The translations under genes were made by a program, and so were the position numbers. Shown here one piece after another: positions 1 to 47,028 of a stretch of DNA of 64,000 bases. This stretch comes from Methylobacter luteus IMV-B-3098 (GTDB taxonomy: Bacteria > Pseudomonadota > Gammaproteobacteria > Methylococcales > Methylomonadaceae): assembly GCF_000427625.1 (NCBI RefSeq), contig NZ_KE386569.1, positions 1,976,591-2,040,590 on the forward strand, given 5' to 3'. Below the pieces are notes generated by a model. It was not told the origin of the DNA, did no database searches, and saw only the letters and a list, made by a program, of their open reading frames with translations. Every line of letters begins with the position of its first letter. Position 1 is the stretch's first letter.

Positions 1-1
1 C

Positions 2-1477
2 CAAAAGCACTGCGAGCAACTGATCGAACACATCGCCAGAACGGCCGGCTGCTTCTTTGAGGAAACCTATCGCAGCGATACCGGCAAAAACGGCCTGCTC
101 GATCGGGAAAGCTACATAGAGCTTATTCTGGGGCTCAAGAACAATATCGGCGGCAAATTTTCGCTGGCTTCGAGCAACCAGGACTGTATTACCGTGACCA
201 GTTCCAGCTGCCCTTTCGGCGACCGCGTGACCAATTTTCCTGAATTATGCGGCATGACCTCGAGCGTGTTTGGCGGCATCGCGGCCAGAAACTTCGGTTA
301 CGCCAAGGTTGAAATCAAAAAGAGCATCGCCCGCAATCACGGCAGCTGCGAAGTTTGCGTCTACACCAACCACGATGCCGGCAAGGACCGTTCCGGCATT
401 GAATACACCGATACGACGCCGATCAAGGAAAAACAGGACATCGACAACCTGCAGGAGCGCATCGAGGAAAGCATGCAGCAAATCTGGCGCAAGCAGGCCA
501 AGGCGCCCGCCAAAAAGCACCAGCCGCCGGCCATCATCGCGAAATCGCCGGCCATGCAGAAAGTCCTGCAATCCATCGAAGTGATTGCGCCGACGCTGGC
601 CACGGTATTGATCGAGGGTCAGACCGGCGTCGGCAAGGAACTGGTCGCGCGCGCCATTCATGCCATGAGCGAGCGCTGCCAGAAACCGTTCATTCCGATC
701 AACTGCGGCGCCATCCCTGAAAGCCTGATCGAAAGCGCCCTGTTCGGGCATGAAAAAGGCGCCTTTACTGGCGCCGTGGAAGTGCATCAAGGCTATTTTG
801 AGCGCGCCGAAGGCGGCACGCTGTTTCTCGACGAAGTCGATTCCCTGTCGCCGGCCGCGCAAACCCGTCTGTTGCGCGTGCTTCAGGAAGGAGAACTGGA
901 ACGGGTCGGCGGCAAGCAAACCCTGTCGGTCGACCTGCGCATCATCTCCGCAACCAACCAGGACCTGGAAGAACTGGTCAGGCAGGGTCGGTTCCGCCAT
1001 GACCTGTACTACCGCATCAACGTGGTCCGGCTCGGCATTCCGCCTCTGGCCGAACGCCCCGAAGACCTGCCCTATCTGGTGCAACTGATCATTCAGCGTC
1101 TGAACAAGAAGTACAACAGACAGATTGAATCGGTCAGCCGCGAAGTCATGCAGAAGATACGCGCCTATCCCTGGCCCGGCAACGTCCGCGAACTGGAAAA
1201 CATCCTCGAACGCAGTCTATTGTTCGCCCGGGGCACGGAAATCACCGAACTGGATCTGGCGCTTCCGGCTTCGGCAAACTCCGGCAACGACTGGAAAGAT
1301 ATCAAGGAAAGCGCCCTGGCCAGAGTCGAGCAAGCCTATCTGGAAACGGCGCTAAAAGCCCATCAGGGCGACGTCAACAGAATCGCCGAGAGCATGGGCA
1401 TCACTTCACGCGCCGTCTACGGCAAACTGAAGAAATATGAGATTAATCTGGCTGAGTACCGGAGTCTGAAAACTTAA
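2..1477 (+). CDS. Sigma-54-dependent activator with N-terminal methanogen-output-type (MetOD1) domain, 5' partial
   Basis: The reading frame is open from base 2, so the gene begins before the window; the GTG at 194 is internal. The visible 491 residues start with a cysteine-rich region (CPFGDRV, PELCGM, GSCEVCVY, about 190-365) resembling the methanogen output domain found in some bacterial regulators. A sigma-54 AAA+ domain follows: Walker A GQTGVGKE (about 616-639), the sigma-54-contacting loop GAFTGA (759-776) and Walker B TLFLDEVD (about 817-840). A Fis-type helix-turn-helix lies at the C-terminus (DVNRIAESMGITSRAVYGKL). It should drive RpoN promoters, with the cysteine domain as possible sensor. 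Targets cannot be told; the convergent cus operon is only a neighbour. The AAA+ call is firm, the N-terminal domain call moderate. Confidence 0.88.
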   Translation, partial: QKHCEQLIEHIARTAGCFFEETYRSDTGKNGLLDRESYIELILGLKNNIGGKFSLASSNQDCITVTSSSCPFGDRVTNFPELCGMTSSVFGGIAARNFGYAKVEIKKSIARNHGSCEVCVYTNHDAGKDRSGIEYTDTTPIKEKQDIDNLQERIEESMQQIWRKQAKAPAKKHQPPAIIAKSPAMQKVLQSIEVIAPTLATVLIEGQTGVGKELVARAIHAMSERCQKPFIPINCGAIPESLIESALFGHEKGAFTGAVEVHQGYFERAEGGTLFLDEVDSLSPAAQTRLLRVLQEGELERVGGKQTLSVDLRIISATNQDLEELVRQGRFRHDLYYRINVVRLGIPPLAERPEDLPYLVQLIIQRLNKKYNRQIESVSREVMQKIRAYPWPGNVRELENILERSLLFARGTEITELDLALPASANSGNDWKDIKESALARVEQAYLETALKAHQGDVNRIAESMGITSRAVYGKLKKYEINLAEYRSLKT

Positions 1478-1498
1478 CCGTTGTTAGACTCTGAATTT

Positions 1499-1530
1499 TT
1501 CACCACGAAGATCACGAAGAACACGAAGTT
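1499..1530. repeat. CACGAAG short tandem motif
   Basis: Three CACGAAG units spaced 9-10 bases apart sit between the activator stop and the 76-bp palindromic repeat. A degenerate relative occurs near 48276-48300. This is a known style of intergenic filler repeat in proteobacteria; no coding capacity. Confidence 0.6.
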
Positions 1531-1537
1531 GTAGCGC

Positions 1538-1613
1538 TGTAGGCTGGGTTGATAAACCCAGCTTTGGGCGCCGCCCATGCCGGGTTTCCGCTAAAGCTCC
1601 AACCCAGCCTACA
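1538..1613 (+). repeat. 76-bp palindromic repeat, copy 1
   Basis: The element begins TGTAGGCTGGGTTGATAAAC and ends CCAACCCAGCCTACA, so its ends are inverted repeats of each other and the RNA would fold into a long hairpin. It lies between the convergent activator and cusA. By direct comparison it is identical over all 76 bases to the reverse complement of 6076-6151, and a near copy lies at 46930-47004. It may also act as a transcription end for either neighbour. Confidence 0.85.
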
Positions 1614-1628
1614 CATATTTCGTGGTTT

Positions 1629-4600
1629 TTATGCGGCGCGCCTTTCCTGATACTGCAACACCAGACTGTACAGCACCGGAAACACCAGAAGACTCAGCAT
1701 CAGCACGCTCAGCATGCCGCCCAGCACCGGCGCGGCGATGCGTTGCGTGACATCGGCGCCGCTGCCCGTCGCCCACATGATGGGAATCAGGCCGACGATA
1801 TTACAGATCGCGGTAATGGCCACGGGCCGCACGCGCAAAGCTGTCGCGGCTTCGGCGGCATTCTTGATTTCTTCGGCCGTCAGCGGGGCTTTTTTCAGCG
1901 CGCGCAGGCGCTCCATTTCCATGTCGATAAAACTCAGCACCATGATGCCGGTTTCGGCGGCCGTGCCGGCCAACGCGATAAAACCGACATAGACGGCAAC
2001 GGATAGATTGAACCCGTAAGCGTAAATCAGCCAGATGCCGCCGATCAGGCCGAACGGGATAGTCAACATGACCAGCAGGGGCTCGACAAAATTACGGAAC
2101 GTGAAATACAGCAACAGGAAAATCAGCAGCAGCGTGACCGGCACGACAACCCGCAGACGCTCCGCGGCGCGCTCCATATACTCGAACTGGCCGGACCAGG
2201 TGACGGTATAGCCGGCCGGGATCTCCAGATTTTCGGCCAGCGTCTGCCTGGCGCGACTGACGAAGCCGCCGATATCGGACGTCGTGATATCGACATAAAC
2301 CCAGGCATTGGGCCTTGAACCCTCGCTTTTAATGACATCGGTGCCGCGCCTGAGTGTCAGATCGGCCACCAGCGTCAGCGGTATCTGGGCGCCCGTAGGC
2401 GTCGGCACCAGCACGCGCCGCAAGGCGCCGATGTTATCGCGCAGATCGCGCGGATAGCGCAGGTTGACCGGATAGCGCTCCAAGCCCTCCACGGTTTCGG
2501 TGATGTTCATGCCGCCGATCGCGCTCTGGATGACATCCTGCACATCGCCGACAGTCAGGCCGTAACGGGCCGCCGCCTCGCGATTGATATCGAAATCCAG
2601 GAAATAGCCGCCGACCACGCGATCGCCATAGGCCGACAAGGTTTCAGGCAGCGTCTTCATGATCTGCTCGATCTGCTGGGACAGGGATTGCAGAACATTC
2701 AGGTCAGGCCCCGACACCTTGATGCCGACCGGCGTCTTGATACCGGTCGACAGCATGTCGATGCGGTTCTTGATCGGCATGGTCCAGGCATTGGCCATGC
2801 CCGGAAACGTGATCGCCCCGTTCATCTCGTCCATCAGCTGTCTGGATGTTTTGTCGGGATCAGGCCACTGGTTTTTGGGCTTCAACTGGATCGTCGTCTC
2901 GATCATCATGAGCGGCGCCGCATCGGTAGCGGTCTCGGCGCGCCCGACCTTGCCGAACACCCGTTCGACTTCGGGAAAGGTTTTCAGAATCTTGTCGGTC
3001 TGTTGCAGCAGTTCACGCGCCTTGGTGATCGAAATGCCCGGAAAGGTGGTCGGCATGTACAGGATGTCGCCTTCATCGAGCGGCGGCATGAACTCGCTGC
3101 CGATCCGTGACAACGGGTACAGCGTCGTCGCCATCAACAGCACGGCCAGCAGTATGGTCAGACCGCGCCAGCGCATCGCCACTCTCAAAACCGGCCCGTG
3201 CAGAAAATGCAGAAAGCGGTTGGCCGGGTTCCGGTGCTCGGGGATGATCCGGCCGCGAATGAAATAGCCCATCAGCACCGGCACGACCGTGACGGTCAGA
3301 ATGGCTGCCGCAGCCATCGCATAGGATTTGGTAAAGGCCAGCGGACTGAACAGCCGCCCTTCCTGCGCCTCCATCGCGAAAATCGGTATGAACGAGACGG
3401 TAATGATCAGCAGCGAGAAAAACAGCGCCGGGCCGACCTCGCGCGAGGCGTTGCCGATAGCCTGCCAGCGCTCGCGAGCGGTCAGTTCGGCCTGTTTCCT
3501 GTGGGCCGCGTCGGCCAGATGCTTATGCGCATTTTCGACCATGACAATCGCGCCGTCGACCATATCGCCTATCGCGATCGCGATGCCGCCCAGCGACATG
3601 ATATTGGCATTCAGGCCCTGCCAGCGCATGATGATGAACGCGGCCAGAATCCCGAGCGGCAGGCTGACAATGATGACCAGCGACGAACGCAGGTGCAGCA
3701 GGAACAGCGCGATCACGAGGCAGACGATGATCAACTCCTGGGTCAAGGCTTCATTGAGCGTATCGACGGCCCGTTCGATCAGGTTGCCGCGATCGTAAAC
3801 GGTCACGATTTCCACGCCTTCGGGCAGGCCTTTCTTGAGTTCCTCGAGCTTGGCGCGCACGCCTTCAATGGTTGCCAGCGCGTTCTCGCCGAAACGCATG
3901 ATGACGACGCCGGCCGCGACTTCGCCCTCGCCGTTCAGTTCCACGAGGCCGCGCCGCAATTCCGGGCCGATCTGGACGCGCGCGACATCCTGCAGGCGCA
4001 CGGGCGTGCCGTTGGCGTCGACGCCGACCGGGATGGTTTTCAGGTCGGCGATCGATTTGATGTAGCCCAGTCCCCTGACCATGTATTCGGTCTCGCCCAT
4101 CTCCAGCAGACGGCCGCCGACGTCGTTGTTGGAACGCTTGATGGCCGTAATGACGGTCGACAGCGGAATTTCATAAGCCTGCAGCGCGTTCGGGTCGACT
4201 TCGACCTGATACTGCTTGACGAAGCCGCCGACCGACGCCACCTCGGCGACGCCGGGCACGGTCTGCAGCGGATAGCGCAGATACCAGTCCTGAATCGAGC
4301 GCAGTTGCGCCAGGTCATGGCGGCCGCTCCTGTCGACCAGCGCGTATTCGTAAATCCAGCCGACGCCAGTGGCATCAGGACCTAATGTGGGCGTCACGCC
4401 CTGCGGCAGCCGCTCCCGTACGTAATTCAGGTATTCCAGCACGCGCGACCTTGCCCAGTAAATGTCCGTGCCATCCTCGAAAATGATATAGACGAACGAC
4501 AGACCGAAGAAGGAATAGCCGCGCACGACCTTGGCATGCGGTACGGCCAGCATGGCCGTCGTCAGCGGGTACGTGACCTGGTCCTCGACGACCTGCGGCG

Positions 4601-4769
4601 CCTGATCGGCGTAATCCGTGAACACGATGACCTGGACATCGGATAAATCAGGGATCGCATCGAGCGGCATGCGCTGATACGACCAGATCCCCGCAACAGC
4701 CAGGATCAGAGCCGCTATCAGCACCATGAAGCGGTTGGCCAGCGACAGGCTGATAATGCGACTAATCAT
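1629..4769 (-). CDS. cusA: CusA-type copper/silver RND efflux permease
   Basis: This 1046-residue inner-membrane proton antiporter is the pump of a tripartite Cu(I)/Ag(I) exporter. Length matches E. coli CusA. The three metal-site methionines have counterparts in ILYMPTT, APLMMIETT and RIDMLSTG, which favours Cu/Ag over the Zn/Co/Cd type CzcA. The transmembrane acidic motif IGDMVDGAIVMVENA and the later GTAAETGIMV are present. The position matching the proton-relay lysine of E. coli CusA (RVRPK) reads RVRPV, as in Czc-type pumps. The start overlaps the end of cusB by 8 bases, implying translational coupling in an operon cusC-cusB-cusA. Family is sure; metal choice is inferred. Confidence 0.93.
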   Translation of the reverse strand: MISRIISLSLANRFMVLIAALILAVAGIWSYQRMPLDAIPDLSDVQVIVFTDYADQAPQVVEDQVTYPLTTAMLAVPHAKVVRGYSFFGLSFVYIIFEDGTDIYWARSRVLEYLNYVRERLPQGVTPTLGPDATGVGWIYEYALVDRSGRHDLAQLRSIQDWYLRYPLQTVPGVAEVASVGGFVKQYQVEVDPNALQAYEIPLSTVITAIKRSNNDVGGRLLEMGETEYMVRGLGYIKSIADLKTIPVGVDANGTPVRLQDVARVQIGPELRRGLVELNGEGEVAAGVVIMRFGENALATIEGVRAKLEELKKGLPEGVEIVTVYDRGNLIERAVDTLNEALTQELIIVCLVIALFLLHLRSSLVIIVSLPLGILAAFIIMRWQGLNANIMSLGGIAIAIGDMVDGAIVMVENAHKHLADAAHRKQAELTARERWQAIGNASREVGPALFFSLLIITVSFIPIFAMEAQEGRLFSPLAFTKSYAMAAAAILTVTVVPVLMGYFIRGRIIPEHRNPANRFLHFLHGPVLRVAMRWRGLTILLAVLLMATTLYPLSRIGSEFMPPLDEGDILYMPTTFPGISITKARELLQQTDKILKTFPEVERVFGKVGRAETATDAAPLMMIETTIQLKPKNQWPDPDKTSRQLMDEMNGAITFPGMANAWTMPIKNRIDMLSTGIKTPVGIKVSGPDLNVLQSLSQQIEQIMKTLPETLSAYGDRVVGGYFLDFDINREAAARYGLTVGDVQDVIQSAIGGMNITETVEGLERYPVNLRYPRDLRDNIGALRRVLVPTPTGAQIPLTLVADLTLRRGTDVIKSEGSRPNAWVYVDITTSDIGGFVSRARQTLAENLEIPAGYTVTWSGQFEYMERAAERLRVVVPVTLLLIFLLLYFTFRNFVEPLLVMLTIPFGLIGGIWLIYAYGFNLSVAVYVGFIALAGTAAETGIMVLSFIDMEMERLRALKKAPLTAEEIKNAAEAATALRVRPVAITAICNIVGLIPIMWATGSGADVTQRIAAPVLGGMLSVLMLSLLVFPVLYSLVLQYQERRAA

Positions 4770-6060
4770 GCTGATGCGGCTCAGGCGCCATCATTTTTTT
4801 TGTCGCTTCGCGCAGATTGGACTCGGAATCGATCAGGAACTGCGCCGATGTCACGACTTCCTCGCCCTCGGCCAGGCCCTCGCGTATTTCGATGTGACCA
4901 TTGGAAGCCAGCCCCAGCCTGACCGTGCGAGGCTCAAACCGGCCATCGCCCTGCACGACGAAAACCCGGTCGCCGGCGCTGGAACGAACCACGGCCTCGG
5001 CCGGAATCACCAAGGCTTCCTGCCGCCTGCCGGCCTGAATCGTGACTTCGGCGAACATGTCAGGCTTCAACAGCAGCTCGGTATTATCAAAGACCAGCCG
5101 CACCTTGATCGTGCGCGTTTTGGCCTCGGCATACGGATAGATGAACGCCAGATGCCCCTTGAAAACCTTGCCGGGCACGCCGGCCAGCCGCATTTCCACC
5201 GGATCGCCCTCCCTGACCCAGGGCAGTTCATACTCGTAAATATCGGCGTATACCCAGACCTTGCTGAGGTCGGCGATCATATACAATTGCGTGGCCGGCG
5301 TGACGTACTGCCCTTCACGTGCGCCAATCTCGATCACGATGCCGGCCGCCGGCGTGTGAATGTGCAGGCTCTTCTTGATTTCATGCGTATGGGTCAGGTC
5401 ATGCAGCTGATGCTCCGGCACGTCCAGCAGTTTCAGGCGTTCGCGCGAGCTGTTGACCAGTTCCTCGGCGCCGCGCCGGATCTCCTCTATCGGGCTTTTC
5501 TTGAGTACTTCGAGATTCTTCAGGGCCAGCACGTATTCCTGCTGGCTGGCCACCAGTTGCGGCGAATAAACGCTCAGCAAATCGGTGTTCTTCTTGACCC
5601 ACTGGCCGGTTTTGTCGACCGACATCGCCTCGATCCAGCCTTCCGTTTTCGGATGCAGGCGCACGATGCGCTCCTCGTCGTAAGCCACGCGCCCTACCGC
5701 GCGGATTCCCTGCGACAGCGTTTGCCGGCTCGCCCTGGCGGTGCGCACGCCGATATTCTGCGTCGTCATCGGGTCGATTTTGACGGTGCCGGCTTTTTCT
5801 TCGGCCTGCTCTTCGTCGGCATAGACCGGAATATAGTCCATGCCCATGCTGTCCTTGGCCGGCACCGGCGAGGTCACGTCCGGATTCATCGGGTTGCGGT
5901 AAAACAGCGGTTTTCTGGGTTCTGCCGGTGTACTGACCGGCTGTTCATGAACCATTTGCCGGCTTGCCAGCCAGTAGCCGGCACCTAATCCCAATGCCAG
6001 CATTAAAATAGCTATTATTGCTTGTTTAGTCACTGATGCTACGCGGTTAGTTGAATCCAT
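4762..6060 (-). CDS. cusB: CusB-type periplasmic adaptor (membrane fusion protein)
   Basis: At 432 residues it links the CusA pump to the outer-membrane channel and can pass metal to the pump. The N-terminus has a membrane anchor or uncleaved signal (about residues 12-32, IIAILMLALGLGAGYWL). A short heavy-metal-binding segment follows, with NPMNP and SMGMDYIPVY, the methionine-rich motif seen in CusB proteins. Then come the HlyD-like hairpin, the barrel-sandwich region (HIHTPAAGIVIEIGAREGQY) and the beta-barrel. It lies 110 bases downstream of cusC; that gap is filled by a palindromic repeat, which could lower expression of cusBA relative to cusC. It overlaps cusA by 8 bases. Confidence 0.92.
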   Translation of the reverse strand: MDSTNRVASVTKQAIIAILMLALGLGAGYWLASRQMVHEQPVSTPAEPRKPLFYRNPMNPDVTSPVPAKDSMGMDYIPVYADEEQAEEKAGTVKIDPMTTQNIGVRTARASRQTLSQGIRAVGRVAYDEERIVRLHPKTEGWIEAMSVDKTGQWVKKNTDLLSVYSPQLVASQQEYVLALKNLEVLKKSPIEEIRRGAEELVNSSRERLKLLDVPEHQLHDLTHTHEIKKSLHIHTPAAGIVIEIGAREGQYVTPATQLYMIADLSKVWVYADIYEYELPWVREGDPVEMRLAGVPGKVFKGHLAFIYPYAEAKTRTIKVRLVFDNTELLLKPDMFAEVTIQAGRRQEALVIPAEAVVRSSAGDRVFVVQGDGRFEPRTVRLGLASNGHIEIREGLAEGEEVVTSAQFLIDSESNLREATKKMMAPEPHQHD

Positions 6061-6075
6061 ATTGGCTTAAGCCTG

Positions 6076-6151
6076 TGTAGGCTGGGTTGGAGCTTTAGCG
6101 GAAACCCGGCATGGGCGGCGCCCAAAGCTGGGTTTATCAACCCAGCCTACA
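6076..6151 (-). repeat. 76-bp palindromic repeat, copy 2 (inverted)
   Basis: Reverse complement of the element at 1538-1613 with no mismatch over 76 bases. It occupies nearly all of the cusC-cusB gap, so it lies inside the presumed operon transcript and would fold as a strong hairpin there. Confidence 0.85.
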
Positions 6152-6169
6152 CTGCCCCTATAAACCCGA

Positions 6170-7456
6170 TTATTCATAAATCTCATCGCTGCCGACGGCG
6201 GCGCTTAATTGCGCCAATGACTGATTAGCCTCAGTGAAAGCCTTCCAGTATTGGGTTTCATAATCGAACAGCGTGATCTGGCTGCGCACCAGGTTGAGAA
6301 AATCGACCTTGTTGACCTGATAGCCGCTCAGCATCGAAGCGACGGTCTGCTGCGCCTGCGGCACGATGCCGGTTTCAAACAGCACAAACTGCTCCCTGGC
6401 GCGCCGGTAATCGCTGTAGCTTTGCGAAATCTGCGAGCGGACATTGTTCCATTGATCCTGCAATGCATATTTCTGCTGCATCAGTTCGCTGGTACGCTGA
6501 TCTACCGCCCTGGCCTGTTTCTGGCCCGCGAAAATCGGCACGTTCACGCGCACGCCCAGACTCAGCAGATCCGAGCGCCTGTCACCCGTTGGCATATCGT
6601 CGCGCGCACCATAAGAAGCATCGACCATAAAGTCGGGCAGATAGTCTTTTTTCGCCAACTCCAGCCGCGACTGCGCGGCATTGATATCCTGGCGTCCGCC
6701 CTCCAGCACAGCCCTCGACGCTTCAGCCTGCTCATAAAGCCGGTCTTCCGGCAGCACGGCCGGCAGTTGCATCGATGCATCGGCCGGCAGTTTAAGTTCG
6801 CTATTGGCCGGCCTGTCCAGTAACGCATTCAGCCTGGCGGCGGCATTGCGCCGCAATGCGGTCAGGTTTATTTTCTGATCGAGCAGCTTTGATAATTCAA
6901 GCTGGGCCAATAGCACGTCCTGCTGCAGGCCTTCGCCGACTTCGTATTTGGTCCGGGCGATATCGACGAACTGATGCAGCAGAGACTGGTTGTTATCGAC
7001 AATGCCAAGCGCGCGGTCCAGATAAAAGATCAGCCACCAGGTGGTCTTGACGTCGCTGAGCAGACGCCGGCGCACTTCCTGCGCGTTGTGCGTTGCCGCG
7101 GCCGCTTCATAGGCGGCCGCCTGCTCGCGCAGAGCCAGCTTGCCCGGAAAAGGAATCGCCTGCGTAATGCCGACCAGAAGCTGGGTCATATCCTCCTGGC
7201 GGGTATCGAAGTTGTCCACGGGCAGGCTCATGGCGCTAAAGCTGATTTCGGGGTCCGGCAAGGTGCCGGCCTGCGAGGGAATATCCGCCATCGCCTTGGC
7301 CCGGGCCAGCATCTGCGCCAGATCGGGGTTATCCTGGACGGCCAGTTCGGCTGCGGCTTGCAGCGTCAAAACGGTCGGCTCTTCCGCACAGACAGTTCCG
7401 CCGGCCAATAAAAGCGAGGCTAAGGCAATATGCTTGAATAGAGTGGGCGGCGGCAT
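6170..7456 (-). CDS. cusC: TolC-family outer-membrane efflux channel (CusC-like)
   Basis: This 428-residue protein would form the outer-membrane and periplasmic tunnel of the CusCBA system. It has a cleavable signal peptide (FKHIALASLLLAGGTVCAEE) without a lipobox, so unlike E. coli CusC it is probably not lipid-anchored. Two repeated OEP helical regions are visible, with typical heptad-like patterns such as RAKAMADIPSQAGTLPDPE near the N-terminus and YRRAREQFVLFETGIVPQA in the C-terminal half. It is the first gene of the operon on this strand, followed by cusB and cusA. The subfamily name rests on context. Confidence 0.85.
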   Translation of the reverse strand: MPPPTLFKHIALASLLLAGGTVCAEEPTVLTLQAAAELAVQDNPDLAQMLARAKAMADIPSQAGTLPDPEISFSAMSLPVDNFDTRQEDMTQLLVGITQAIPFPGKLALREQAAAYEAAAATHNAQEVRRRLLSDVKTTWWLIFYLDRALGIVDNNQSLLHQFVDIARTKYEVGEGLQQDVLLAQLELSKLLDQKINLTALRRNAAARLNALLDRPANSELKLPADASMQLPAVLPEDRLYEQAEASRAVLEGGRQDINAAQSRLELAKKDYLPDFMVDASYGARDDMPTGDRRSDLLSLGVRVNVPIFAGQKQARAVDQRTSELMQQKYALQDQWNNVRSQISQSYSDYRRAREQFVLFETGIVPQAQQTVASMLSGYQVNKVDFLNLVRSQITLFDYETQYWKAFTEANQSLAQLSAAVGSDEIYE

Positions 7457-7519
7457 GATATCCTCATAGTAAATCCGTTAAGCCAATGTACCTAGTTTAA
7501 CTGATGTTACGCAAGCGCT

Positions 7520-7598
7520 TGTAGGCCGGGTTGAAGCTTTAGCGCAAATCCGGCATGAGCAGCTTCGAAATGCCGGGTTTACCAGCCGCCGCCAGCCT
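7520..7598 (+). repeat. Diverged palindromic repeat, copy 4
   Basis: Starts TGTAGGCCGGGTTGAAGC and ends near GCCAGCCT. It keeps the outline of the 76-bp element (TTTAGCGCAAATCCGGCATG in place of TTTAGCGGAAACCCGGCATG) but the arms have diverged. A string ACTGATGTTACGCA lies just upstream (about 7500-7513) and recurs before copy 3 at about 46872. It sits in the divergent gap between cusC and the ATPase gene. Confidence 0.65.
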
Positions 7599-7701
7599 GA
7601 TGCAACTCCCGGCACGGCTTGGAAACGTTTCGCGGAAAGCCATCATCCAATTTAATATTGCTTAAAAATCACCTTTACCAAAAAGAACAACAAGGGTCTG
7701 A

Positions 7702-10524
7702 ATGATCACAACTGATAAATTAATGTTCTTGCTCAGCGATGTGTTGAGTCAACCGATGCCGGCCTGGGCCATGGCGGCCGCCTTACTTATACTGATCGCC
7801 GGAATTTTATTCATTTACAGTCGGCGGCGTCATCGGGCCGTGGCACCTGCTTCGATCGAGAGCGAAGCAGCCGCCTGGCACGGCATGAGTGCCGAACAGG
7901 TGCTACAGGAACTGGCTTCCATTCAATCCGAAGGTCTCAGTCAGACAGAGGCGACGGAACGACTGAAGCGTTACGGACCCAACAAGCTGGCCGAGAAACC
8001 GCCCAAACCCGCCTGGCTGCTGCTGTTGTCGCAGTTCAAGAGCTTTCTGATCATCGTGCTGATCGCCGCCGCGCTGCTGGCTGCAGCCATCGGCGATGTC
8101 AAGGATGGCGCCGTGATTCTGGTGGTCGTGATCATCAATGCCTTACTGGGCTTTTATCAGGAATTTCAGGCCGAGCAATCGCTGGCGGCGCTGAAAAAAA
8201 TGCTGGCACTATATGCCGAAGTCCGCCGCGACGGCCATAACCGGAATCTGCCGGTTGAGCAGCTCGTGCCGGGCGATATCGTGATTCTCGATGCCGGCGA
8301 TAAAATCCCGGCCGATGGCCGCATCATCGCCGCGCACGCGCTGGAGATCGATGAATCATCACTGACCGGCGAATCGATACCGGTCGCCAAACAGATTCAG
8401 ACGTTGCCCCGGAAATCGTCGCTCGCCGATCGCAACAACATGGTTTACATGAACAATGCCGTCACGCGCGGCCGTGCTGAAATGGTCGTGACCGCGACCG
8501 GCATGGACACCGAAATCGGCCGGCTGGCGGGACTGCTCGCGCAGGCCGAAGACGGCGAGACGCCGCTGCAAATACAGCTCGACAGTCTAGGCAAACGACT
8601 GGCGCTGATCGCTTTGATCGTGATTATCGGCCTGTTCATGAGCTCGCTATGGCGCGGCGAACCGCTGATAGAGACCGCATTCACGGCCATTGCACTGGCC
8701 GTGGCCGCCATACCGGAAGGCCTGCCGGCTGTCGTCACGGTCACGCTGGCGCTAGGCATGCACCGCCTGGCCCGGCAGCGCGCGATCGTCAAGCGCCTGG
8801 CCGCCGTCGAAACGCTGGGCTGCACGACCGTCATCTGCACCGATAAAACCGGCACGCTGACCGTCAACCAGATGACGGCGCGGTCGGTCTTTTATCAGGG
8901 CCGAAATTATCATATTAGCGGCGAAGGCTATGACCTTGCCGGCGCTATTTCGGCCGAATCCGGCGATAACGGGAATTTGTCGGACCTGCTGCTGCCGCTG
9001 GCGCTGTGCAATAACAGCCACCTGCATGACGGTCAGGTCGTCGGCGATCCGATGGAAGGCGCCCTGCTGGTGCTGGCCGCCAAGGGCGGCATCGACAAAA
9101 ACGAGGCGCTCGCGCAATTGCCGCGTCTGGCCGAACTGCCTTTCGACGCCGAGCATAAATTCATGGCGACATTTCATCGCGACGGCGACCACGTCAAGGT
9201 GTTTGTTAAAGGCGCTCCCGAAGTCATCCTGAACCGCTGCACCACGATACTCGATACCGAAGGCAAGCCCGCCCCGCTCCATAAAGACGAACTGCTGGCT
9301 GCCAACAAAGCGATGGCCGGCACCGGTTTGCGCATACTGGCCGTGGCCGAAAGAACGGTGCCGGCCGACCAGTTTGCGGCGGACAGCGATCTGTTCCAGT
9401 ACATGGCGGAACTGACCTTTGTGGCGCTGATCGGCCTGATGGACCCGCCCCGGCCCGAAGCCCGCGACGCGATCGAACTGTGCCGGCTGGCCGGCATCGA
9501 AGTCAAGATGATCACAGGCGACCAGAAAGTGACGGCCAATGCCATCGCGCGGGAACTGGGCCTGACAGGCGATGTGGTCGAGGGCCGGGAACTGGCCGAT
9601 ATGGAGGATGAAGCGCTGGCCGGCCGCATCAATAATATCGCCGTTTTCGCGCGCACGGCGCCGGAACAGAAAGTCCGCATCGTCAAGGCTTTGAAAACCG
9701 ACGGCCATATCGTCGCGATGACCGGCGACGGCGTCAACGATACGCCGGCCCTGAAAAGCGCCGATATCGGCATCGCCATGGGCATCACCGGCACCGATGT
9801 CGCCAAGGAAGCGGCCACGATGGTGCTGACCGATGACAATTTCGCGACCATCGTCAGGGCGGTCAAGGAAGGACGCGGCATTTACGACAACATGATCAAA
9901 TTCATCCGCTTCCAGCTTTCGACCAATATCGGCGCCATTCTGGCCGTGGCCAGCGCCCCGCTGCTGGGCCTGCCGGCTCCGTTCACGGCCGTGCAACTGC
10001 TGTGGATCAATATCATCATGGACGGGCCGCCGGCCATGGCCCTCGGCGTCGATCCCGCGCGGCCGGGCAGCATGTCGGAGCCGCCGCGCGATCCCAAGGC
10101 GCGCATCCTCTCCTGGCGGCGCCTGGGCAATTTGTTCACGTATGGACTGACCATGGCGGTCGGCACGCTGGCCGTTCTTTATTACGACTGGCAAAACGGC
10201 CAGGCGGAACGCGCGGCTACGCTGGCTTTTACGACGTTTGTGCTGTTCCAGGCGTTCAATGTGTTCAACGCGCGCGCCGAACGAGTCACAGCATTCAACC
10301 GGCATTTCTTCTCCAACCGCATGCTCTGGCTCGCCATTTCCAGCGTCGTGCTGCTGCAGATACTGGCCGTGCACTGGCCGCCGGCTCAAGCTGTCTTCCA
10401 CACCACGGCGCTGACGCCAACGGACTGGTTTATTGCGGTCGGTGTTGCCTCGTCCGTGCTGGTGCTTGAGGAATTACGCAAACTTTTGCAGTCTATAGGT
10501 AAATGGCTCAAACACCGAATGTAG
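7702..10524 (+). CDS. P2-type cation-transporting ATPase
   Basis: This 940-residue inner-membrane pump has all P-type hallmarks: phosphorylation motif DKTGTLT (Asp about residue 381), LTGES in the actuator domain, and MTGDGVND in the hinge. The M4 motif AAIPEGLP and M6 NIIMDGPPA match the P2 group (Ca2+-ATPase/PacL-like; related forms move Ca2+, Mn2+, Na+/K+ or H+), so the ion is not settled. It carries an extra N-terminal transmembrane segment (about residues 18-38, ending FIYSRRRHR) before the usual cation-ATPase N-terminal domain. It starts at ATG behind AAGGG, and hpnN follows 42 bases downstream on the same strand, possibly co-transcribed. Confidence 0.92.
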   Translation: MITTDKLMFLLSDVLSQPMPAWAMAAALLILIAGILFIYSRRRHRAVAPASIESEAAAWHGMSAEQVLQELASIQSEGLSQTEATERLKRYGPNKLAEKPPKPAWLLLLSQFKSFLIIVLIAAALLAAAIGDVKDGAVILVVVIINALLGFYQEFQAEQSLAALKKMLALYAEVRRDGHNRNLPVEQLVPGDIVILDAGDKIPADGRIIAAHALEIDESSLTGESIPVAKQIQTLPRKSSLADRNNMVYMNNAVTRGRAEMVVTATGMDTEIGRLAGLLAQAEDGETPLQIQLDSLGKRLALIALIVIIGLFMSSLWRGEPLIETAFTAIALAVAAIPEGLPAVVTVTLALGMHRLARQRAIVKRLAAVETLGCTTVICTDKTGTLTVNQMTARSVFYQGRNYHISGEGYDLAGAISAESGDNGNLSDLLLPLALCNNSHLHDGQVVGDPMEGALLVLAAKGGIDKNEALAQLPRLAELPFDAEHKFMATFHRDGDHVKVFVKGAPEVILNRCTTILDTEGKPAPLHKDELLAANKAMAGTGLRILAVAERTVPADQFAADSDLFQYMAELTFVALIGLMDPPRPEARDAIELCRLAGIEVKMITGDQKVTANAIARELGLTGDVVEGRELADMEDEALAGRINNIAVFARTAPEQKVRIVKALKTDGHIVAMTGDGVNDTPALKSADIGIAMGITGTDVAKEAATMVLTDDNFATIVRAVKEGRGIYDNMIKFIRFQLSTNIGAILAVASAPLLGLPAPFTAVQLLWINIIMDGPPAMALGVDPARPGSMSEPPRDPKARILSWRRLGNLFTYGLTMAVGTLAVLYYDWQNGQAERAATLAFTTFVLFQAFNVFNARAERVTAFNRHFFSNRMLWLAISSVVLLQILAVHWPPAQAVFHTTALTPTDWFIAVGVASSVLVLEELRKLLQSIGKWLKHRM

Positions 10525-29400: not shown

Positions 29401-29558
29401 TCGGCGTGCAGCCTTTCGGCGGCATGCGCCTTTCCGGCACAGGTCCCAAGGCCGGCGGCCCCGATTATTTGCGCCGCTTTGTTGTGGAACAGACCGTGAC
29501 GACCAATACCGCCGCGATCGGCGGCAACGCGACTTTGCTGACTCAGGATTTGCGGTAG
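26448..29558 (+). CDS. putA: Bifunctional proline dehydrogenase / P5C dehydrogenase
   Basis: This 1036-residue enzyme oxidises proline to glutamate in two steps, using FAD then NAD+. The N-terminal half is the proline dehydrogenase barrel (RLVKGAYWDSEIKRAQ, FQRLHGMGEALY). The C-terminal half is the aldehyde dehydrogenase (SPWNFPIAIFTGQ, IAETGGQN, catalytic Cys in NSAGQRCSALR). The ribbon-helix-helix repressor domain of E. coli PutA is absent, so it should not regulate its own gene. ATG 26448 is preferred over ATG 26433 because GGGTGGA lies six bases ahead of it. Its product glutamate is the substrate of the divergently encoded dehydrogenase. The stop codon TAG lies within a palindromic repeat. 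Confidence 0.94.
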   Translation: MAETSTTTLRTAISQAYLTDEKDIIAALSTDLLTYDAAAAGASAETLVTAVRTRAQRHSAIEAFLHEYQLNSQEGIVLMGIAEALLRIPDRQTQDLFLQEKLTVADWQRHVQHSDSFWVNLSTRALLLTRQFEELAAPSPQHWFPVFEQLLSRMGAPLIRSALNQAMQYMALQFVIADSIEQAVVRGEQQPAYRYSFDMLGEAALTAADAERYFQSYAKAIATLAGHAHNDDIYANPGISVKLSALCPRYEPLQQVRAVKELTDRLLHLANHARAANISLTVDAEESERLDMSLTIFAAVLAQLNGWPGLGLAVQAYQKRALPVIRWLAALAESRQCKIPLRLVKGAYWDSEIKRAQENGLSDYPVFTHKSATDVSYLACAQFMLSRPEAFYPQFASHNAHTLAAVHQMGRQHPGYEFQRLHGMGEALYDEIMEHQGWQIPCRIYAPVGHYHELLPYLVRRLLENGANTSFVNQIDHPDISVTELICDPVATVKATELKSPIVLPRDIYGEKRLNSSGVNLADPEVLNQLQQDLNALADRQWTAVPLVDGQPCPGQEQIIVNPWDNRQAVGTVSHAGQETIEQALAGAAEAFNDWRLCPVETRAACLKRAADLFEQHRLELVSLCIREGGRTIRDALSEVREAVDFCRYYAQSALELFGEPIRLPGPVGEDNRLHYYGRGVYVCISPWNFPIAIFTGQVVAALAAGNTVIAKPASQTALTAMHCVRLLHQAGVPESVLQFLPADGRTTGQHVLPNPQVAGIAFTGSTATARFINQQLAEHHQAIVPIIAETGGQNVLIADSSALPEQLVQDAMLSAFNSAGQRCSALRALFVQEEIADKTIAMLTGAMQELSLGNPGLTSTDIGPVIDHAALAPLTAHLEMMKQQAKLLYQLPMNDELKHGSFFAPSLFEIESLSQLTQEVFGPILHLIRYRAADLDQVIAAVNATGYGLTLGIHSRIETTAEKIRQGVKVGNIYVNRNMIGAVVGVQPFGGMRLSGTGPKAGGPDYLRRFVVEQTVTTNTAAIGGNATLLTQDLR

Positions 29559-29596
29559 GCCGGGTTGATAAACCCGGCATGAGGAGCTTCGAAACT
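29555..29596 (+). repeat. Partial palindromic repeat, copy 5
   Basis: GTAGGCCGGGTTGATAAACC then CGGCATGAGGAGCTTCGAAAC. This is a left-end fragment of the same family as 1538-1613 and closest to the copy at 7520 (shared GAGCTTCGAAA-like string). It supplies the putA stop codon. Confidence 0.65.
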
Positions 29597-37823: not shown

Positions 37824-38211
37824 TTATTTGCTGCTGGTGCGGTGCCAAACTGACTTTGGAGCAGATGGATCATTGGACTCCTCTTCCGTTACAGTGCCGT
37901 CTGAATTTAGGGTAAAAGTGAAAAGCGGCTCAGCCACGGTCTTGCCGGTTTCAAAACAGGTACCGGTGAAATCATCCACTGTTAAAGTCCCCTCTGCCGC
38001 CATTACATACAGTGAAGTAGGTGGCATACTGGAGCACTTTGAATGTGCCGTCGCTATTATCCGTAATCGAAAGTATATCGTGAGACCCGTCAGTGGTTTC
38101 GACCCTCTCCCATAGACCAACGAAGCTATTGGCTTCTCCCGCCCGTGCCCGACCGGCCATGGAGGCTGCGAGCATGAGCAACATCAGTACATTAAGAAGT
38201 ATGTTTTTCAT
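37824..38211 (-). pseudogene. Small secreted protein, array member 1, frameshifted by internal deletion
   Basis: It begins MKNILLNVLMLLMLAASMAG (signal peptide) and follows its paralogues through FVGLWERVETTDGSHDILSI to VCNGGRG near 37998. It then shifts frame and resumes as AEGTLTVDDFTGTCFETGKT, ending at 37824 after VWHRTSSK. Compared with the member at 39057-39470 it lacks 35 bases between CAGAG and GGGACTT, which removes the VQGTGKVS-coding part and breaks the frame. The frame immediately stops without the family C-terminus unless reading shifts. Confidence 0.8.
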
Positions 38212-38286
38212 AGCCTGTTCTCCTGAGTGAGATTGTTGCCAGCACTGCATCCATGGAGCGCTGGCAGGTACAAGACTACAGCGACA

Positions 38287-38757
38287 TTAACTGCTGGTTT
38301 TATGAAAAATTATCGACGGAGGAGGCGGTGCGGGCTCTGCAGAGCGATCCCATGTTAAAGTGCCATCTGGATTTAGGGTAAAAGTGGCGGGAAGTGTCTC
38401 TGTCTTGTCGGTTTCAAAACAGGTAACGACAAATTCATCCACTTTTAATCCTCCTTCTGCCGAAACATTGCCCGTGCCTTGGGTAATGCCTCTGCCGCCA
38501 TTACATATAGTGATGTATGTGGCATAAAGGAGCAGTTTTACTGCGCCGCCATTATTGTTTGTAATCGAAATCATAATGTGAGCCCCGTCCTCGGGATCAA
38601 CCCCTTCCCATAAGCCAATGAAGCTATTGGTAGTTCCCGATGTTGAGGTATCGGTACTTCCTGACCCTGAGGTACTGGTATCTTCTATCTCGGCCCGACT
38701 GATTACGGAGGTAGCAAGCATGAATAAGGTTGTCGCTATAAGAAGTATGTTTTTCAT
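38287..38757 (-). CDS. Small secreted protein, array member 2, unknown family
   Basis: 156 residues from ATG 38757 (GGAGA upstream; an earlier in-frame ATG has no ribosome site). A signal peptide (KNILLIATTLFMLATSVISRA) precedes a Ser/Thr/Gly-rich linker, TSTSGSGSTDTSTSGTT, unique to this copy. The shared domain follows: SFIGLWEGVDPEDGAHIMIS, then TICNGGRGITQGTGNVSAEG, VTCFETDKTE and FTLNPDGTLTWDR. Two conserved cysteines could form a disulphide. I do not recognise the family. It is probably transcribed with member 1 from the duplicated upstream region at 38825-38922. Confidence 0.75.
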   Translation of the reverse strand: MKNILLIATTLFMLATSVISRAEIEDTSTSGSGSTDTSTSGTTNSFIGLWEGVDPEDGAHIMISITNNNGGAVKLLLYATYITICNGGRGITQGTGNVSAEGGLKVDEFVVTCFETDKTETLPATFTLNPDGTLTWDRSAEPAPPPPSIIFHKTSS

Positions 38758-38824
38758 AGACTGTTCTCCTGATTGAAACTGATGATTGAACAGCGCTCCA
38801 ATAGCGCTGCATGATTTCAACGAC

Positions 38825-38922
38825 AGACACGATCCTGTATGTCTCAAACAGATAAAAAACAACCTTGCAATTGAAAATATTTACATTTTTTAAAGACAAT
38901 TACTATTCGTACGACGGCTTAT
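38825..38922 (-). repeat. Duplicated upstream region of array, copy A
   Basis: It aligns with 40054-40152 upstream of member 4. Both carry ACATTTTTTAAAGAC and CTATTCGTACGA in the same order and spacing. It likely contains the promoter for members 2 and 1. The 130 or so bases beyond, up to the stop of member 3 at 39057, hold no gene. Confidence 0.65.
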
Positions 38923-39056
38923 TCAACTTGCTGAAATTCAACAGAAAACAGCAATTTCGGGTTCTGTTTTTATAGTGAAGCGCTAATGAGAGAGACACAT
39001 CATTACTTATCTGTACTGCGTTTATATAGCTTGGAGAATTCCGACTATAGAGGCTG

Positions 39057-39470
39057 TCACTTACTGGTTTGATGATAAATCTTCAAAGGAAAGAATGACG
39101 CTGTGCTGGTCCGCGTTAAAGTGCCGTCTGAATTTCTGGAAAAAATGACGGATGCTGTCTCGGTATCCTCGTTTTCAAAACAGGTAATGGTGAAATCATC
39201 CGATTTTAAAGTCCCTTCAGCCGAAACTTTACCTGTGCCTTGAACAAGACCTCTGCCACCATTACACGAATTGAAGTATGTGTCATAAATGAGCAGTTTG
39301 AATGCGCCGTCACCGTTGTGCGTAATCGAGAGAACCTGATGAGAGCCATCATCGGGATCAATTGTCTCCCATAAGCCGACGAAGTTACTGGCATCTCCCG
39401 CCTGCGCCCGACTGATGATGGAGGCTGCGAGCATGAATAAAGCAACAGCCATAACGATTATGTTTTTCAT
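39057..39470 (-). CDS. Small secreted protein, array member 3, unknown family
   Basis: 137 residues: a signal peptide (KNIIVMAVALFMLAASIISRA, cut near AQA-GD) and the array's domain with NFVGLWETIDPDDGSHQVLS, SCNGGRGLVQGTGKVSAEG, ITCFENEDTE, SRNSDGTLTR and the ending IYHQTSK. Both conserved cysteines are present. It lies 79 bases downstream of member 4 on the same strand and matches member 1 in position within the duplicated pair. The predicted location is the periplasm or outside the cell; function is unknown. Confidence 0.77.
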   Translation of the reverse strand: MKNIIVMAVALFMLAASIISRAQAGDASNFVGLWETIDPDDGSHQVLSITHNGDGAFKLLIYDTYFNSCNGGRGLVQGTGKVSAEGTLKSDDFTITCFENEDTETASVIFSRNSDGTLTRTSTASFFPLKIYHQTSK

Positions 39471-39548
39471 AGCTAGCCCTCCTGAGACAGACTAATCCCC
39501 ATGCCTCATATACATGAAGCATGGGCGAGTACCAAATTACGGATAATG

Positions 39549-39986
39549 TTATTTGCTGGTTCGATGATAAATAATCAGCGGAGTCAGTGGCGCAGGGCCA
39601 ACCCGTGCTAAAGTGCCGTCTGAATTTCTGGTTAAAGCGATGGGCACGACCGTGGTATCGCCAGTTTCAAAACAGGTAATGGCGTAATCATCAGATTTTA
39701 AAGATTGCTCTGCCGAAACTTCACTCGTGCCCTGGGCAATCCCTCTGTCCCCATTACACAAAGTCCAGAACGTATCATAAACAAGCAGTTTGACTGTGCC
39801 GTCATCATTGCTCGTAATCGAAAGGATCAGATGAGACCCGTCCCGGGGATCAACCGCCTCCCATAAGCCAATGAAGCTATTGCCATTTCCCGGCTCTGAG
39901 CCATTGGTATTTTCCGAGTCTGCAGGACTGGTCGTGGCGGCCGAGAGCATGAGCAAAGCAACTGCCATAATGAGCATGTTTTTCAT
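39549..39986 (-). CDS. Small secreted protein, array member 4, unknown family
   Basis: 145 residues: a signal peptide (KNMLIMAVALLMLSAATTS), a short linker ENTNGSEPGNG, then SFIGLWEAVDPRDGSHLILS, TLCNGDRGIAQGTSEVSAEQ, ITCFETGDTT, TRNSDGTLAR and IYHRTSK. GGAGG lies eight bases before the ATG. It is the first gene of the array in transcription order, with the upstream region at 40054-40152 that is duplicated before member 2. No similarity to a named family comes to mind. Confidence 0.77.
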   Translation of the reverse strand: MKNMLIMAVALLMLSAATTSPADSENTNGSEPGNGNSFIGLWEAVDPRDGSHLILSITSNDDGTVKLLVYDTFWTLCNGDRGIAQGTSEVSAEQSLKSDDYAITCFETGDTTVVPIALTRNSDGTLARVGPAPLTPLIIYHRTSK

Positions 39987-46870: not shown

Positions 46871-46929
46871 TTACTGATGTTACGCACTGACAGATTTTTT
46901 TGCCGTTTGCCGGACGCTGTTAACCAGGG

Positions 46930-47004
46930 TAGGCTGGGTTGATAAACCCAGCATTCGAGGCCGCCCGTGCCGGGTTTCCGCTAAAGCTCCAACCCAGCCT
47001 ACAC
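46930..47004 (+). repeat. Palindromic repeat, copy 3
   Basis: GTAGGCTGGGTTGATAAACC to CCAACCCAGCCTACA. It differs from 1538-1613 only in the centre (CATTCGAGGCCGCCCGTG in place of CTTTGGGCGCCGCCCATG). It lies between convergent rbgA and nadA. Confidence 0.8.
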
Positions 47005-47028
47005 TTGCTGCACGTTTCTGTACGTAGG

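Follow-up and report, generated by a model that had tools for sequence, protein, structure and literature searches.

A REPIN pair around cusBA in Methylobacter luteus and the broken cusC-cusB overlap

Why do two identical inverted repeats lie exactly around cusB and cusA, with one of them set between these genes and cusC? The question is raised by a 64,000-nucleotide stretch of the 5.03 Mb genome of Methylobacter luteus IMV-B-3098 (the whole stretch analysed, hereafter the window; C1:1976591-2040590, C1 being the contig and G000 the source genome), which carries an operon of cusC-like, cusB-like and cusA-like genes. We concluded that each repeat is a REPIN, that is, an imperfect palindrome of two facing GTAG-tagged repetitive extragenic palindromic (REP) sequences, of the type found in bacterial interspersed mosaic elements (BIMEs). 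With considerable confidence we hold the following account: a REP-associated tyrosine transposase (RAYT) of the same genome moves the REPIN, recent copies settled at two sites in the cus operon, and their effect is a local one, at the junction of cusC and cusB. REPINs and RAYTs are already known as a kind; the interesting part is that a conserved overlap of the cusC stop with the cusB start has been broken.

REPINs at the cus operon and the cusC-cusB overlap

A repeat search of the window showed that the two arms are exact reverse complements at 78/78 nt, that they stand 4458 nt apart, and that the shared sequence stops at the element edges, with no extension found (Table 1). The initial annotation had described an inverted repeat of 76 bp, 2 nt short of the true length. 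It was correct that the repeat is exact, that the pair encloses precisely cusB and cusA and leaves cusC outside, and that other copies in the window have diverged. Copy 1 begins 13 nt past the cusA stop, and copy 2 lies 18 nt past the cusC stop and 13 nt ahead of the cusB start. In copy 1, a GTAG-tagged REP (1539-1562) is joined to an inverted REP with CTAC at 1609-1612. The REPIN reads in order GTAG-GCTGGGTT-GAT-AAACCCAGC, then a spacer and the second unit in inverted form, closing in CTAC; the REP halves were recognised as GTAG plus GCTGGGTT..AACCCAGC, the inverted partner, and CTAC. The number of matches expected for two diagnostic stretches of the REPIN was 0.00 (100 dinucleotide shuffles of the window); thus, the pair is not a product of chance. 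Each arm was predicted to fold into a hairpin, at −25.1 kcal/mol as DNA (z −6.0) and at −47.2 kcal/mol as RNA (z −6.45), so that the strong hairpin earlier proposed inside the operon stands as a prediction.

Table 1. Coordinates of the REPINs, the insertion and the cus genes in the window.
Feature	Position	Strand	Remarks
REPIN copy 1	1538..1615	+	78 nt, 100% inverted identity; covariance model 99.4 bits
REPIN copy 2, same sequence as copy 1	6074..6151	-	sits between cusC stop and cusB start
Whole insertion, about 138 nt	6032..6169	-	18 nt, REPIN, spacer and second repeat ending GCGTAGCATCAGT; versus G001, G002 and G003
Second dispersed repeat, end module AACTAACCGCGTAGCATCAGT	6032..6052	-	now codes about CusB residues 3-9
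Kept ancestral octamer ATGAATAA (former cusB start overlapping cusC stop)	6170..6177	-	same overlap in 68/77 loci
36-codon leader open reading frame, former cusB start through REPIN	6067..6177	-	translation
Diverged REPIN upstream of cusC	7518..7597	-	56.6 bits; same site in G002 and G003
cusA-like resistance-nodulation-division permease, 1046 aa	1629..4769	-	TIGR00914 1254 bits, cut-off 701; dN/dS 0.07
cusB-like periplasmic adaptor, 432 aa	4762..6060	-	dN/dS 0.13-0.16 versus G003 and G002
cusC-like outer-membrane factor, 428 aa	6170..7456	-	PF02321 140 bits; dN/dS 0.09-0.10

Next to the pair we compared three congeners, G001, G002 and G003, two of which share about 87-90% nucleotide identity with the source genome while the third is more distant. 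The cusC-cusB site was free of REPINs in 3/3 congeners, and there the cusC stop and the cusB start overlap as ATGAATAA. Judged by this sequence comparison, the copy between cusC and cusB is a lineage-specific insertion that came later than the split from G001-G003. A count over named loci showed how widely the overlap is kept. Eighty such loci had a CusB, of which 3 partial ones were dropped; two of the remaining 77 (L039 and L050) are probably the same records as congeners G002 and G001 and are not independent. In 68 of the 77, an open, in-frame start lay 8 nt ahead of where the cusC stop ends, which was scored as an 8-nt overlap; the octamer was ATGAATAA in 60, ATGAGTAA in 7 and ATGACTAA in 1. 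At control positions upstream in the same phase, ATG or GTG occurred at 86 of 2541. Among the other nine loci, four overlap by 1-4 nt and five are gapped by 45-271 nt (L110, L095, L102, L103 and L106, the 271-nt gap being that of L110, Nitrosomonas sp. NMNS01).

The insertion that separates the two genes in M. luteus holds more than the REPIN, and its right edge is approximate. Its end module belongs to a second dispersed repeat, which was matched at 24 places in the genome with no more than 3 mismatches (the one in the insertion included) and at none in a reversed-pattern control; in 13 places compared by eye, the flanks diverge immediately beyond the motif. This second repeat ends sharply in CTGCGTAACATCAGT, counted exactly 17, 11, 10 and 8 times in G000, G001, G002 and G003, respectively, against 0 for the reversed control, and window 6032-6052 is a variant of that end. 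Some of the CTGCGTAACATCAGT places close longer mosaics, part of which contain the REPIN.

The REPIN itself belongs to a genome-wide family. At least 76 copies were found in the stretches examined, 57 of them with a complete GTAGG...CCTAC core; these stretches lie around known copies and over-sample close neighbours. By crude open reading frame calls (at least 80 aa), 49 of the 76 copies were clear of reading frames, 18 overlapped a frame end and 9 lay wholly inside one. Of the nine frames holding whole copies, two exceeded 1.2 kb and the rest were under 0.5 kb. The copies are therefore numerous, dispersed and mostly extragenic, and they consist of paired inverted GTAG-tagged REPs with GTAG...CTAC ends that fold, as in REPINs and BIMEs. 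A covariance model built from 43 of 50 copies (7 truncated or aberrant ones were excluded) gave 127, 43, 70 and 69 matches in the four genomes of the genus compared, G000, G001, G002 and G003, among the best 150 candidates per genome, counts that are inflated where a palindromic copy matches the model on both strands. With the threshold tightened, a match occurred in 17 of 61 genomes from the taxonomic family, with at most 10 per genome outside the genus (best 77 candidates each).

Within the window, the diverged REPIN upstream of cusC scored well below the identical pair; it is old and predates that pair, because G002 and G003 share it at the same site. A full copy at 46928-47005 (+), 46929-47004 in the repeat search, is 93% identical, and a lone REP-like half with 2 mismatches occurs at 29556-29578 (+). 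Short CACGAAGATCACGAAGAACACGAAG-like repeats at 1490-1535 adjoin the REPIN at the cusA end, and are also found near the equivalent place in G002 (L169).

The likely mover and the probable origin of the identical pair

A likely mover is encoded elsewhere on the same contig. The 178-aa protein at C1:3391014-3391547 scored 207.4 bits with family model NF047646 (cut-off 80) and matched PDB 4er8 (TnpArep) at E 1.7e-48, the sole PDB match at E 0.001. The alignment placed PEHLHCIW on PEHMHCIW and DYIHYNPVKHG on DYIYINPVKHG, with the HUH motif aligned and Y131 opposite Y115 of the 4er8 chain; Y115F is given as the catalytic mutant of TnpA-REP in PMC8266576. With the curated family model passed, and with the HUH motif and catalytic tyrosine aligned, we identified the protein as a RAYT. 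The Pfam Y1_Tnp model gave it 21.9 bits, under the cut-off of 23. Two REPINs border the gene at one end and a single REPIN at the other end (C1:3390829, 3390930 and 3391593). Beyond the third REPIN (L023:2255-2305), inspection by eye showed part of the RAYT 3' end a second time, as though the unit had been duplicated in the past.

The closest relatives of this RAYT gene were also accompanied by the repeat. The G002 relative (89% identity; L213, C176:21500-25500) is bordered by at least five REPINs at one end and a 34-nt remnant at the other, an array larger than that at the source-genome RAYT. The G054 relative (74%) has one REPIN on each side at 75-76% identity, and the G031 relative (72%, with one internal TGA) has one REPIN at 73% and a 36-nt piece opposite. 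Three of the four other RAYT-like matches in the source genome (L159, L160 and L161) had no full-length REPIN within about 1.4-1.6 kb on each side; L161 had one 21-nt partial match near the gene. This specific association of REPIN and RAYT supports, short of proof, our view that the RAYT at 3391014 is most likely what moves the REPIN.

The pair at the cus operon is young. Zero differences in 78 nt limit its divergence to about 3.8% at most (95%), a bound about a tenth of the dS of 0.38-0.50 that separates the operon genes from those of the two nearer congeners, on the assumption that REPINs change at the silent-site rate. Together with the empty cusC-cusB site in the congeners, this bears out the recent copying that the initial annotation had suggested. 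Most likely one copy recently gave rise to the other, or a common source to both; the direction of copying is something that we infer. Only two identical pairs of cores occurred among the 2850 pairs that the 76 copies allow. The second pair, at 2620525 (L191) and 4095123 (L190), has 74-nt cores lying 1.47 Mb apart in unrelated flanks, and shows that copying has dispersed the REPIN. For two identical pairs, the probability that one or both fall within 5 kb is about 0.023, so the closeness of the cus pair hints at local copying. REPINs do cluster in this genome, with 25 adjacent pairs within 5 kb vs about 6 expected if they were uniform, the former count being somewhat raised by the over-sampling of close neighbours. 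Because 8 of these 25 close pairs face in opposite directions, an opposite-facing bracket around two genes is not remarkable in itself.

Could the identity instead reflect gene conversion, with older REPINs at both sites that recombination recently made identical? Downstream of cusA no REPIN was found in G003 or G001; G002 has a 30-nt REPIN remnant there (93%, same orientation), and the cusA-end site may thus be older. The closeness of the pair would also be in keeping with conversion, as would an identity that ends at the element edges. In contrast, the cusC-cusB site is empty in all three congeners, so that copy is new and an insertion is required in any case, and the other identical pair is spaced by 1.47 Mb. 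The identity in itself would fit conversion as well as transposition; we consider gene conversion unlikely, and lean towards recent copying of the REPIN into the operon.

Proposed consequences for the cus operon

We propose that the REPIN is a non-autonomous hairpin, most likely moved as single-stranded DNA by the RAYT, and that two copies of one variant would have settled, one downstream of cusA and one in the cusC-cusB junction, the second of them arriving within the mosaic insertion after the split from the congeners. Its main effect is likely to be local. The insertion breaks the 8-nt stop-start overlap and would put a stable hairpin into the mRNA, cusB would take its start from a new ATG within the repeat, and output of cusBA relative to cusC would be expected to drop or to become less tightly coupled. 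The REPIN is most likely a passenger moved by the RAYT, with the effect on cus as a by-product.

The new junction keeps the former cusB start, which now opens a leader reading frame running through the REPIN. The leader stop ends 6 nt upstream of the present cusB ATG (6060), which is within inserted DNA, and the GTG of codon 10 could serve as the start instead. The new ATG was unpaired in the predicted centroid fold and paired in the predicted minimum-energy fold. Ribosomes may re-initiate once the leader has been read, begin anew at 6060, or initiate at the codon-10 GTG. A further reading is that the REPIN-containing mosaic insertion rewired a translational coupling that is widely conserved, such that a 36-codon leader is translated, re-initiation follows 6 nt on at the cusB start in the inserted repeat, and the hairpin turns a fused junction into a leader-controlled one. 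We put this forward tentatively, as a doubtful reading. If it were true, mobile hairpins could convert fused operon junctions into leader-controlled ones.

Several observations weigh against our account or parts of it. The leader reading loses weight because 62 of the 68 loci with the overlap carry a Shine-Dalgarno-like string (AGGA, GGAG or GAGG) ahead of the start, and none was found in the equivalent stretch before the leader start in the source genome; strong translation of the leader is thus disfavoured. A plain hop of one REPIN does not explain the whole insertion, which at about 138 nt exceeds one REPIN and is absent from the site in 3/3 congeners. As to the mover, a different RAYT-like gene, at 552411, has a REPIN copy (556827) about 4 kb away, beyond the stretch examined there. 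G003 has its 69 model matches with a best RAYT relative of only 57% identity (L216), which has no adjoining REPIN; REPIN copies would therefore persist without this RAYT or come from another one. Local copying in general is not favoured, because copies within 5 kb are hardly more alike than distant ones (mean identity 0.856 vs 0.848; permutation P 0.35, 50 copies). Movement and effects on expression alike are inferred from compared sequences.

A selected role is a further alternative, in which the hairpins tune the operon by protecting the 3' end after cusA and by attenuation before cusB. In its favour, the predicted hairpins are stable. In E. coli, a hairpin under 16 nt from a stop leads to translational down-regulation, according to section 8 of PMC12306157. 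The cusA-end hairpin, 13 nt past its stop, would fall within this range if the E. coli distance rule were to carry over to the Methylobacter host, whereas the other hairpin, 18 nt past the cusC stop, would lie beyond it. The cusC-cusB copy is also lineage-specific, and both copies resemble dozens of others. We found no intrinsic terminator (a G+C-rich hairpin with a T run) at either REPIN, and terminator-like sites in 1450-7750 numbered 8 vs 5.7 expected from shuffles. No sigma-70-like promoter was found in the cusC-cusB insertion, and Rfam families gave zero matches at gathering score across window 1-8000. We judged selection for regulation to be improbable, and retained the passenger with a by-product effect.

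The pair is most likely neither an invertible switch nor a transposon carrying cusBA. The initial annotation had suggested that recombination between the arms could invert the 4.5 kb and disconnect cusBA from cusC, and 78 nt of perfect inverted identity permit this. Nothing bore this suggestion out: cusC, cusB and cusA all face one way in the source genome and in 3/3 congeners, and cusA was on the cusB strand in 77/77 loci where its start was matched. The five long genes at this locus (encoding a sigma-54-type regulator, CusA, CusB, CusC and a P-type ATPase) include no recombinase. Opposite-facing geometry, moreover, comes free with a dispersed repeat, given the eight such close pairs among 25. 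No second orientation was seen in the loci compared, and we regard a switch as very improbable. That two REPINs carried cusBA in as a cassette is hardly credible despite the exact bracketing, and was rejected, since the gene order regulator-cusA-cusB-cusC-ATPase is the same in G003 and G001 (and from cusA to the ATPase in the part of the G002 contig read), and identity to G003 is similar inside the bracket (90.0-90.1%) and for the genes outside it (87.2, 87.9 and 90.2%).

The genes themselves are intact, with ratios of nonsynonymous to synonymous change (dN/dS) of 0.07-0.16 against G002 and G003, values that span the whole divergence and do not single out the time since the insertion. The CusA-like protein passes TIGR00914 (CusA/CzcA), and the CusB-like protein reaches 210.7 bits with the CusB model NF007303, whose cut-off is 390; 'Cus' is therefore a family-level name here and does not specify the metal of the pump. 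By CusB, the nearest named locus is that of Methylobacter sp. BlB1 (90% identity). Elsewhere in the window, 37824-39986 (-) holds related small genes in repeats at least 60% alike, three of 137-191 aa with a signal-like start and an apparent broken fourth, forming a tandem family of putative exported proteins.

Significance and known systems

REPINs are usually seen as passengers between genes. The REPIN described here sits where most relatives preserve an 8-nt stop-start overlap, in an operon for three pump proteins that are expected to form one assembly. The genes have stayed intact, with low dN/dS over the divergence compared. Relatives with an empty site offer a natural comparison for the effect of a REPIN on operon stoichiometry. 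The finding also adds a REPIN/RAYT pair from a bacterium that, by its relatives, is methane-oxidising. Among the open-literature matches listed there was no description of a Methylobacter REPIN/RAYT family and no paper on REP sequences in cusA/B/C intergenic regions. The strings 'methylo' and 'nitrosomonas' are absent from the main text of PMC3733652, as is 'methylo' from the main text of PMC8266576, PMC12306157 and PMC6006769.

We compared the family with three known systems. The GTAG-tagged REP families of PMC3733652, likened here by description and not via the 24 consensus sequences of that paper, share the GTAG end, the inverted dimers, the RAYT genes flanked by repeats and the dispersed copies. 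With the E. coli BIMEs and TnpA-REP (PMC8266576), the comparison is by features and not by REP alignment: the GTAG tag, the imperfect stems and a RAYT that matches PDB 4er8 are in common, and the Methylobacter RAYT may likewise cut its cognate single-stranded REP. The REPINs of Pseudomonas fluorescens SBW25 (Bertels and Rainey 2011, PMC3116915), likened by architecture and not by sequence alignment, have the same paired inverted REPs with a spacer, the single hairpin, the extragenic dispersal and the link to a RAYT, and the Methylobacter REPINs may move likewise. Unlike the SBW25 REPINs, some Methylobacter copies lie within longer mosaics that include a second repeat.

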